Part shown: positions 57,694 to 60,456 of the stretch, piece by piece
Numbering within the stretch: the stretch's first letter is position 1
Layout of the letters: each line of letters starts with the position of its first letter
From: Cyanobacteria bacterium QS_4_48_99
Lineage (GTDB): Bacteria > Cyanobacteriota > Cyanobacteriia > Cyanobacteriales > Rubidibacteraceae
Assembly (NCBI GenBank): GCA_003021505.1
Contig: PXPT01000097.1
Location: forward strand, 1 to 60,456
Length of the DNA: 60,456 nucleotides
Direction of reading: 5' to 3'
Notes under the pieces: generated by a model
What the model saw: the letters and a program-made list of their open reading frames with translations, nothing else
Database searches by the model: none
Told to the model about the DNA's origin: nothing
Translations under genes and position numbers: made by a program

Positions 57694-57811
57694 CCAGCAA
57701 TCCTGCGTGAGTGCGAGCGCTACACTGATAAGGTAATATCTGTTTTGAAGCTGCTCTCTAAGTTTCTGCCTAGCACTTGCGTTTCCCGATTAGCACGGAT
57801 GAATATTGCTC

Positions 57812-58480
57812 ATGACTAATGCCGCTTCTGCCAATACTAGCCACCCCTGGGGATGGGACTTTTTTACCCCGCAGCCGCACCAGGATACTGATTTATTCAA
57901 GCAGTTCAGCTTGATTCCTGGACTGAAAGAATTTTTGATGCTGCGCCAGGTACATGCTCTAGAACATGCCACCGTCTGGGTTCTAAGTGAAACTGCCAGG
58001 GAACCGAGTCAAATTCCTGACACATCAAAGCGTCCGAGTGCGATTAACCCTCCTCAAGCGGACAATGAAGCATTAGGAGGTCTCTCCACTGACCAGGGAT
58101 TCTATTTGTATGGTCAAGTCAACCCAGTCCACTTACAGCGTGCAGTTTGCCTTGCTCTGGGGCGTTTCCAAGCTGGGGAGTGGGATTTAGCCGTTCATCC
58201 CCGCTGCGGGACAAACGTGTCGGTGGCACTGATGTTAGCTGCCGGAATGAGCCTAGGAACTCATTTACTTTTGCCACGAAGTCCGCTCGAACAATTGCTG
58301 GGTCTAGGTTTAGCTACAACTACCGCTACCCAGTTAGCACCCGATTTAGGGAAAGTCGCCCAAAAGTACCTGACCACTTCTATTCCTTTTAACCTAAAAT
58401 TGGTAGACATTTTAGAAACCTCTGACTTCTGGGGAAATCCAGCGCATTTTGTCCTGGTGCGGTGGAGCGCTTTGCAATAA
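57812..58480 (+). CDS. DUF6391-type cyanobacterial protein
   Basis: The 222-aa protein has the core MLRQVHALEHATVWVLSE, LGGLSTDQGFYLYGQVNPVHLQRAV, LAVHPRCGTNVSVALMLAAGMSLGTHLLLP and ending WGNPAHFVLVRWSAL. This is a small cyanobacterial family with no known biochemical role (DUF6391 from memory). One hydrophobic stretch (SVALMLAAGMSLGTHLLL) could be a membrane helix. A downstream ATG was chosen (57812) over a TTG six bases earlier. psaE follows 75 bp downstream. Confidence 0.75.
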   Translation: MTNAASANTSHPWGWDFFTPQPHQDTDLFKQFSLIPGLKEFLMLRQVHALEHATVWVLSETAREPSQIPDTSKRPSAINPPQADNEALGGLSTDQGFYLYGQVNPVHLQRAVCLALGRFQAGEWDLAVHPRCGTNVSVALMLAAGMSLGTHLLLPRSPLEQLLGLGLATTTATQLAPDLGKVAQKYLTTSIPFNLKLVDILETSDFWGNPAHFVLVRWSALQ

Positions 58481-58555
58481 AACTTAAAGCCTGGGGTTAG
58501 CAGTAAGCTGCAATCTCATAGTACGCTTTGAGATAAAAGATGGAGACATAACATT

Positions 58556-59020
58556 ATGGTTCAACGTGGATCTAAAGTTAAAATTCTTAGACCAGAATCC
58601 TATTGGTTTGGAGACGTGGGGAGCGTGGCAACTGTAGACAAGAGCGGCATTCGCTATCCGGTCATTGTTCGCTTTGATACAGTTAACTACACCAGCTATA
58701 GTGGTCAAGATGCGGGCGTAAGCACCAATAACTTCGCAATGGAGGAACTCGAAGAAGTGGAAGCTCCAGCGAAGAAAGAGAGACAGAAAAAATCATCCAG
58801 CAAATCCACAGAGTCCAAAACTGCCCAACAAGGCGGAGCTGCCAGAAAAGCGGAACAGGAAGCCAAAGCTAGCGGTAAAACGCAACAGCAGGCTCAAAAG
58901 GACGCTGAGGAGGTTAGCGAAACTACCACTAAAGGCGCACCCCAATCGAAAGGAGAGGGTCAAGAGCGACCTTCGCAAGGCAAACCTGGTAGTCCACAAC
59001 AGGGAGGAAGTTCCACCTAA
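58556..59020 (+). CDS. psaE: Photosystem I subunit PsaE with long C-terminal extension
   Basis: Residues 1-67 are Psa[50 protein letters not shown] and [12 protein letters not shown]. PsaE is the SH3-fold stromal subunit of photosystem I that helps dock ferredoxin and supports cyclic electron flow. Normal PsaE ends at about 70-75 residues. Here about 85 more follow, rich in Lys, Gln, Ser, Gly and Glu ([34 protein letters not shown]), with no predicted fold. ATG after GGAGA. The mutM GTG starts 3 bp after the stop. Confidence 0.9.
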
Positions 59021-59023
59021 GTT

Positions 59024-59875
59024 GTGCCCGAGCTACCAGAAGTTGAGACTGTCTGTCGGGGTCTGAATGAGTTGACCCCAAAGCAGGAATTTCGGGGTGG
59101 GGAGGTTTTGCTCAAGCGCAGCCTTGCCTACCCCGTTTCTATGGAGGAGTTTTGGGCGGGGTTAAAAGGGACTGCGATCGCTCATTGGCAGCGGCGGGGC
59201 AAATACTTACTCGCCCCCCTATTGGACTCCTCGCAAGAGCAACCCGCAGGCTGGTTAGGCGTTCATCTACGCATGAGCGGTCAATTATTATGGCTCCAGC
59301 GAAACGAACCCCTGCAAAAACATACACGAGTGCGACTGTTTGTGGGAAACAGCGGGGAGTTACGTTTTGTTGACCTACGCACGTTTGGTCAGATTTGGTG
59401 GGTGCCACCCACCGAAGCGCCAGAAAGCATCATCACAGGGTTAAAGAAACTCGGACCAGAACCGTTTTCGCCTGATTTTTCCCAAGAGTATCTGAGAAAA
59501 AAGCTTCAAAATTCCCGGCGCTCAATCAAAACGGCACTACTCGACCAAGCGCTTGTGGCCGGTATGGGCAATATATATGCCGATGAGGCTCTTTTCAAAA
59601 GTGGAATTCGACCGGAAAAGCTTGCTGGCAACTTAAGTATAAAGGAAATTGAGTGCCTACGAACGGCAGTGATTTCGGTGTTGCAAGCAGGAATCGATCG
59701 CGGTGGAACCACTTTCAGTAATTTCCTCAATGTGCTAGGTGTTAACGGTAACTACATGGGAATTGCCTGGGTTTATGGGCGCAAAGGAGAACCTTGTCGC
59801 ATTTGTAGCACCCCGATTCAGAAGATTAAACTAGTGGGGCGATCGGCTCACTTTTGTCCGTACTGTCAGAACTAG
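59024..59875 (+). CDS. mutM: Formamidopyrimidine-DNA glycosylase (MutM/Fpg)
   Basis: The 283-aa bifunctional repair enzyme removes 8-oxoguanine. It has the N-terminal catalytic PELPEVETVCRGL (after the start Met), the H2TH region QALVAGMGNIYADEALFKSGI, and a C-terminal zinc finger CRICSTPIQKIKLVGRSAHFCPYC. GTG start at 59024. Its position 3 bp after psaE suggests co-transcription; Fpg has been reported downstream of psaE in another cyanobacterium and is linked to survival in high light. Confidence 0.96.
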   Translation: MPELPEVETVCRGLNELTPKQEFRGGEVLLKRSLAYPVSMEEFWAGLKGTAIAHWQRRGKYLLAPLLDSSQEQPAGWLGVHLRMSGQLLWLQRNEPLQKHTRVRLFVGNSGELRFVDLRTFGQIWWVPPTEAPESIITGLKKLGPEPFSPDFSQEYLRKKLQNSRRSIKTALLDQALVAGMGNIYADEALFKSGIRPEKLAGNLSIKEIECLRTAVISVLQAGIDRGGTTFSNFLNVLGVNGNYMGIAWVYGRKGEPCRICSTPIQKIKLVGRSAHFCPYCQN

Positions 59876-60094: not shown

Positions 60095-60456
60095 AGCAAT
60101 TCTCAGAATTACGAGGTACAGTAGCAGCAGTGAGTAGACCAATAACGAACCTCGGAGTTAGTCACCTTTGACCTTGCCTCCGTAATCCCATCGACTAAAT
60201 TTTTATAAGTTCTGGCTTTGACCTTTTTGAAGATTGCTTTGAGTTTCGACCCAAAAAAATCCCTCGGGGAAAACTCAGGAGAATAGGGAGGTAAATAGAT
60301 TAATCTTGCCCAGGCTGGTTCGAGAGATTTTCTCACCATTTCTCCTTGGTGGAACTTAGCATTGTCCATCACTACACATGCACCCTTCCAGAGCTGAGGA
60401 ACTCAATCTTTGACTATAAATGCTTCCAATGTTACTCCGTCTACAGTTCCGTAAAT
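60095..60456 (-). mobile_element. IS630-family transposase, decayed, runs off window
   Basis: From the window edge the frame reads IYGTVDGVTLEAFIVKD, then an in-frame TGA (60403-60405), then VPQLWKGACVVMDNAKFHQG, PAWARLIYLPPYSPEFSPRD, SKLKAIFKK, and ends WSTHCCYCTS at 60109-60111. The DN..FH motif (second Asp) is present, but the third acidic residue usually found in SPDLNPIE is replaced by SPEFSPRD. The 3' flank holds the palindrome AATTCT-C-AGAATT (60098-60110), probably part of the element's end. With a stop and a missing catalytic Glu it should be inactive. Confidence 0.75.

Follow-up and report, generated by a model that had tools for sequence, protein, structure and literature searches.

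PsaE is a stromal subunit of photosystem I (PSI) that lies near the ferredoxin site and takes part in ferredoxin binding (PMC8908432); in Synechococcus PCC 7002, cyclic electron flow depends on it in vivo (Yu et al. 1993, cited in PMC8908432). A C-terminal extension of this subunit has been reported from the red alga Cyanidioschyzon merolae, where an unresolved, Lys-rich PsaE tail forms cross-links with adjacent core subunits of PSI and with Lhcr1 (PMC13322767, 2026). That study uses "fishing hook" as a section heading and describes such tails as enriched in red algae; the general idea of a PsaE tail is already published for the red-algal lineage and is not new. We found no open-access account of cyanobacterial PsaE tails, or of the free protein described below; a paper on the TS-821 tetramer names PsaE once and mentions no PsaE tail, and the string NQGTESR is printed in no paper that we found. 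Among the PDB matches listed for PsaE, the resolved chains end within about 10 residues of the end of the core, even for longer deposited sequences: 9jj8_e and 9uen_e, both of 131 residues, are resolved over 63 residues each. A single PsaE in the PDB, 7qco_V (126 aa), carries a tail with the sequence PNQGTExR.

The stretch of DNA analysed here (the window) comprises 60,456 nucleotides of a contig from Cyanobacteria bacterium QS_4_48_99, and contains the only psaE copy in this draft genome of 196 contigs. The gene lies on the forward strand at 58556..59020 and encodes 154 amino acids, tail included, from an ATG preceded by a probable ribosome binding site (GGAG, 58542..58545, 10 nt before the ATG) to a TAA stop (59018..59020). 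The core domain (residues 1-68, 58556..58759) is that of a normal PsaE. It matches the full length of PF02427 (profile positions 1-60 of 60) over residues 2-68 with an E value of 3.6e-32 and 110.3 bits against a cut-off of 27, NF002745 spans residues 1-69, and the AlphaFold2 model is an SH3-like fold of five strands whose best Foldseek matches are all PsaE chains of PSI. This bears out the claim of an earlier note, made from the letters alone, that the core is complete at residue 67 or so.

Downstream, on the same strand, the stop codon is followed by GTT and then by the GTG start of mutM (formamidopyrimidine-DNA glycosylase, 59024..59875), leaving 3 nt between the two genes. The coupling to mutM remarked on in the same note is uninformative about the tail because the arrangement is nearly universal. 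Of 39 relatives, a sample of nearly one genome per family of the order plus the whole family of the window (f1), 37 have mutM as the next gene after psaE, on the same strand. The gene upstream of psaE (57806..58480, forward strand) encodes a DUF6391 protein and is also close to psaE in 22 of the 39. The psaE stop lies 2-3 nt from mutM, mostly in the same frame, in eight genomes with the conserved tail module described below (L032, L045, L082, L083, L020, L021, L028, and L036), and the gap is longer in most short-tailed genomes. A fragment of a DDE_3 (IS630-like) transposase is present at the end of the window (60109-60372, reverse strand; PF13358, E value of 7.5e-11).

The remaining 86 residues of PsaE (69-154) contain a single hydrophobic residue. 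In 5000 dinucleotide shuffles of the tail DNA the mean was 9.4 and no shuffle encoded as few as one; stop codons were absent from only 9.7% of them. The frame is therefore a coding one, not the product of chance read-through. Three parts can be distinguished, all on the forward strand. The first is a basic linker of 17 residues with a net charge of +4 (58760..58810), a Lys-rich start that is common to every long PsaE tail seen. It is followed by a low-complexity, near-neutral middle rich in A, Q, K, S, G, and E (residues 86-143, 58811..58984), in which no homology to the conserved module was detected, and by the C-terminal 11 residues (58985..59017), which a profile match marks as a probable diverged copy of the end motif GxPNQGTExR. 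In 10-residue blocks, the pLDDT of the tail in the AlphaFold2 model is about 47-66, and the model assigns it neither helix nor strand. The tail contains no tandem repeat. These results support the earlier description of a disordered, Lys/Gln/Ser/Gly-rich tail of roughly 85 residues on an otherwise normal PsaE.

Tail length is bimodal across the 39 relatives, with either 0-24 or 42-93 residues. Every long tail opens with a Lys-bearing linker, and many short ones have a few lysines at the very end (APPAKKKKK and EAPKAAKAK are examples). In the nine genomes of family f1, including that of the window, the tails measure 8, 14, 16, 17, 24, 58, 73, 86, and 93 residues, and within one genus (g2) the length ranges from 14 to 73. 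The long f1 tails are rich in Ser, Gln, Gly, and Lys and can hardly be aligned; those of G008 and G005 consist of near-pure Ser/Gly/Gln repeats. The nearest long-tailed relative of the window, G003, has a 93-residue tail of similar composition. Between these two, dN is 0.104 in the core and 0.921 in the tail, a contrast of about nine- to tenfold that is subject to an uncertain 80-codon alignment, and dN alone was used for this pair since dS is saturated. The corresponding values for G005 and G008 are 0.042 and 0.492. Because tail dN is far above core dN in both pairs, the tail sequence is weakly constrained, and purifying selection on the window tail was not detected in the comparison with G003, its sole comparable relative. 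A search for the same tail in relatives, as had been suggested, thus recovers long tails within the family, but neither their sequence nor their length is conserved.

Elsewhere, the PsaE tail can be conserved. A tail of about 60 residues is present in many families of the same order and in a few of other orders, and consists of a Lys-rich linker, a central motif SGG(K/Y)QT....RxTG, a variable stretch, and an end motif GxPNQGT(E/D)xR. Seven residues (R, T, G, N, Q, G, and T) are invariant in a 23-row alignment of this module, and R27 and T29 of the central motif are invariant in A1. The module tails have dN values of 0.02-0.18, about 1.2 to 3 times those of their cores, and the module is under purifying selection. 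No Pfam or NCBIfam family outside PsaE matched the module in its fused or its stand-alone form.

When the module tail alone was used as the query, short separate open reading frames were also recovered. These encode stand-alone proteins of about 59-79 residues that carry the end motif and, in most cases, the central motif (L131:3332-3520, L133:2968-3183, L135:2602-2799, L139:2555-2791, L142:2953-3138, L145:2537-2713, and others). A phylum-wide sample comprised 386 genomes, of which 181 have psaE; the module is present in 48: fused only in 14, free only in 32, and in both forms in 2. These counts are no evidence of mutual exclusion, as independence already predicts about 3 genomes with both. 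Family f33, which probably corresponds to Nostocaceae, has the free form most often. No conserved neighbourhood of the stand-alone genes was found; the ten neighbouring proteins scanned are mostly unrelated, offer no clue to function, and include DUF2391, DUF2382, trypsin, GNAT, hemerythrin, HSP20, subtilase, amylase, and aspartyl protease. No match to the stand-alone module was obtained in the plasmid collection.

Several genomes depart from the usual psaE complement. Two (L069 and L070; G091 and G316) have two psaE genes each, one short and one with the conserved tail and without an adjacent mutM, and the tailed copy looks as if it were a separately acquired paralogue. In L088 (G101:C33), a psaE match at 2672-2854 corresponds to a divergent PsaE domain in an open reading frame of about 350 aa, the C-terminal part of which is unrelated and partly hydrophobic; this genome has two PsaE matches. 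In a whole-genome search, no PsaE match was found in the nearly complete genomes G016 (same order, family f9), G134, and G205, which could be explained by gaps in the assemblies, by strong divergence, or by the loss of PSI.

Is the window tail a derivative of this module? Taken as a whole it is not recognizable as one: 747 of 2000 shuffles score as high against the module profile, the central SGGKQT....RxTG motif has no significant match, and shuffling only the middle leaves the score of the global profile alignment unchanged. A conserved module across the entire window tail can be rejected for the middle, which scores no better than its shuffles. The last 11 residues, however, score 12.9 bits on the C-terminal profile of the module in one fixed register. 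Random draws from the tail composition reach this score with a frequency of 1.8e-4 (8.5e-5 with the stand-alone profile), and these residues rank above the C-termini of 528 other long open reading frames, of which the best non-member scores 4.2; a true variant member of the module left out of the profile scores 10.1. In this end motif (GSPQQG) N, T, and R are replaced, and G, Q, and G remain of six invariant or nearly invariant residues. Further, the TAA-GTT-GTG junction between psaE and mutM is identical in the module-bearing genomes L032, L045, L082, and L083, and a MutM tree places G011 (L016), which has the module, beside most of family f1, with moderate support (84/76). Given the profile match, the shared junction, and this placement, the window tail probably descends from the conserved module, with its middle replaced and its end motif eroded. 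The case is weakened because no other member of family f1 keeps the motif and no intermediate was found there. Nor was the module detected elsewhere in the window's genome or family at an E value of 1 or below, save for a chance-level match (0.22) in G006.

We consider it most probable, with a likelihood of about 0.6, that the window encodes a normal PsaE with a disordered tail that has diverged from the module and may act as a basic anchor and a sequence-tolerant tether. The ancestral tail would have been the conserved PsaE module of related cyanobacterial families; in the window lineage a low-complexity stretch of Lys, Gln, Ser, and Ala would have replaced or expanded its middle, and its end motif would have decayed at the C-terminus. 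The short basic segment may anchor at the acceptor side of PSI, and the rest may form a flexible, sequence-tolerant tether on the stromal face. Any effect of the tail would probably be electrostatic or steric, with soluble or neighbouring complexes weakly attracted or held at a distance, and would probably involve no fixed binding site. We infer this electrostatic or tethering role only weakly, and neutral drift would produce a picture similar to that of a functional tail. Such drift is the basis of an alternative that we regard as unlikely though far from negligible, in which a short Lys-rich C-terminus that points into the stroma was lengthened by slippage or stop loss, has no role, and resembles the module at GSPQQG by coincidence. 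The wide range of tail lengths in genus g2 and in the family, the roughly tenfold higher dN of the tail, and the near-pure repeats in G008 and G005 are all consistent with such an origin. On the other side, the window tail is without a tandem repeat, its C-terminal match in a fixed register has a p value of about 1e-4 to 2e-4 and exceeds all 528 controls, and its depletion in hydrophobic residues suggests selection at least for solubility or disorder.

The proposal in the earlier note that the tail could bind a partner such as ferredoxin, NDH-1, or an inter-complex linker, read here as a dedicated arm that tunes cyclic electron flow, fares less well: none of the present results singles out any of these partners, and we judge the proposal improbable. 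The stromal location near the ferredoxin site on which it drew is established for the PsaE family, and the position beside the acceptor side (PMC8908432), the net charge of +4 in the proximal 17 residues, and the cross-links of the Lys-rich red-algal tail to PSI core subunits and Lhcr1 (PMC13322767) are compatible with it. However, the red-algal contacts are PSI subunits and antenna, not ferredoxin or NDH-1, and the family has no conserved tail sequence. The middle is unconserved even among the closest relatives, where tails range from 8 to 93 residues and tail dN is 0.92 against 0.10 in the core, variability that argues against a strict partner-binding sequence. A reading or assembly error that fused PsaE with a downstream frame, the artefact against which the earlier note had warned, is scarcely credible even for a draft assembly, as psaE is one intact coding frame whose codon usage is ordinary (mean log synonymous preference of 0.0, compared with -0.18 and -0.11 for the two alternative forward frames), G003 is an independent genome with its own tail of similar composition, and the mutM start follows directly after the stop as in relatives.

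The pairing of tail and free protein has wider implications. The occurrence of the same sequence on PsaE and as a separate protein suggests, as a gene-fusion prediction, that the fused and free modules share a partner at the acceptor side of PSI. A broader reading, which we advance tentatively and hold to be somewhat doubtful, is that the C-terminus of PsaE has repeatedly served as the point of attachment for a small disordered protein (about 60-79 aa) that many heterocyst-type cyanobacteria make separately, and that the window tail would be a motif-less descendant keeping only the basic tether. The disordered tails of this small, otherwise very conserved PSI subunit differ between lineages, and one of them is also made as a free protein; this pairing predicts an unrecognised PSI-associated factor. 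The window tail itself is real, lineage-specific, and fast-changing. As the probable decaying end of this series of tails, it cautions against assigning function by position alone; of wider interest is the conserved module, which lies outside 58556-59020.

Compared with structurally characterized proteins, the window PsaE shares its core, fold, and gene neighbourhood with the cyanobacterial chains 9s6p_E (86 aa), 8vu3_E, and 6kif_E, which end in a short Lys-rich C-terminus, and differs from them by its 86 further disordered residues. It is like PsaE of the 7qco_V type in having a long disordered tail after a Lys-rich linker and a resemblance in the last 11 residues. In contrast to that module, it is missing the central SGGKQT..R.TG motif, its end is without N, T, and R, and its tail evolves about ten times faster than its core. 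The C. merolae tail, from the red-algal plastid lineage, is shorter (33 aa) and more basic (9 Lys in 33) (PMC13322767), but like the window tail it follows the PsaE core as a positively charged extension on the stromal side.
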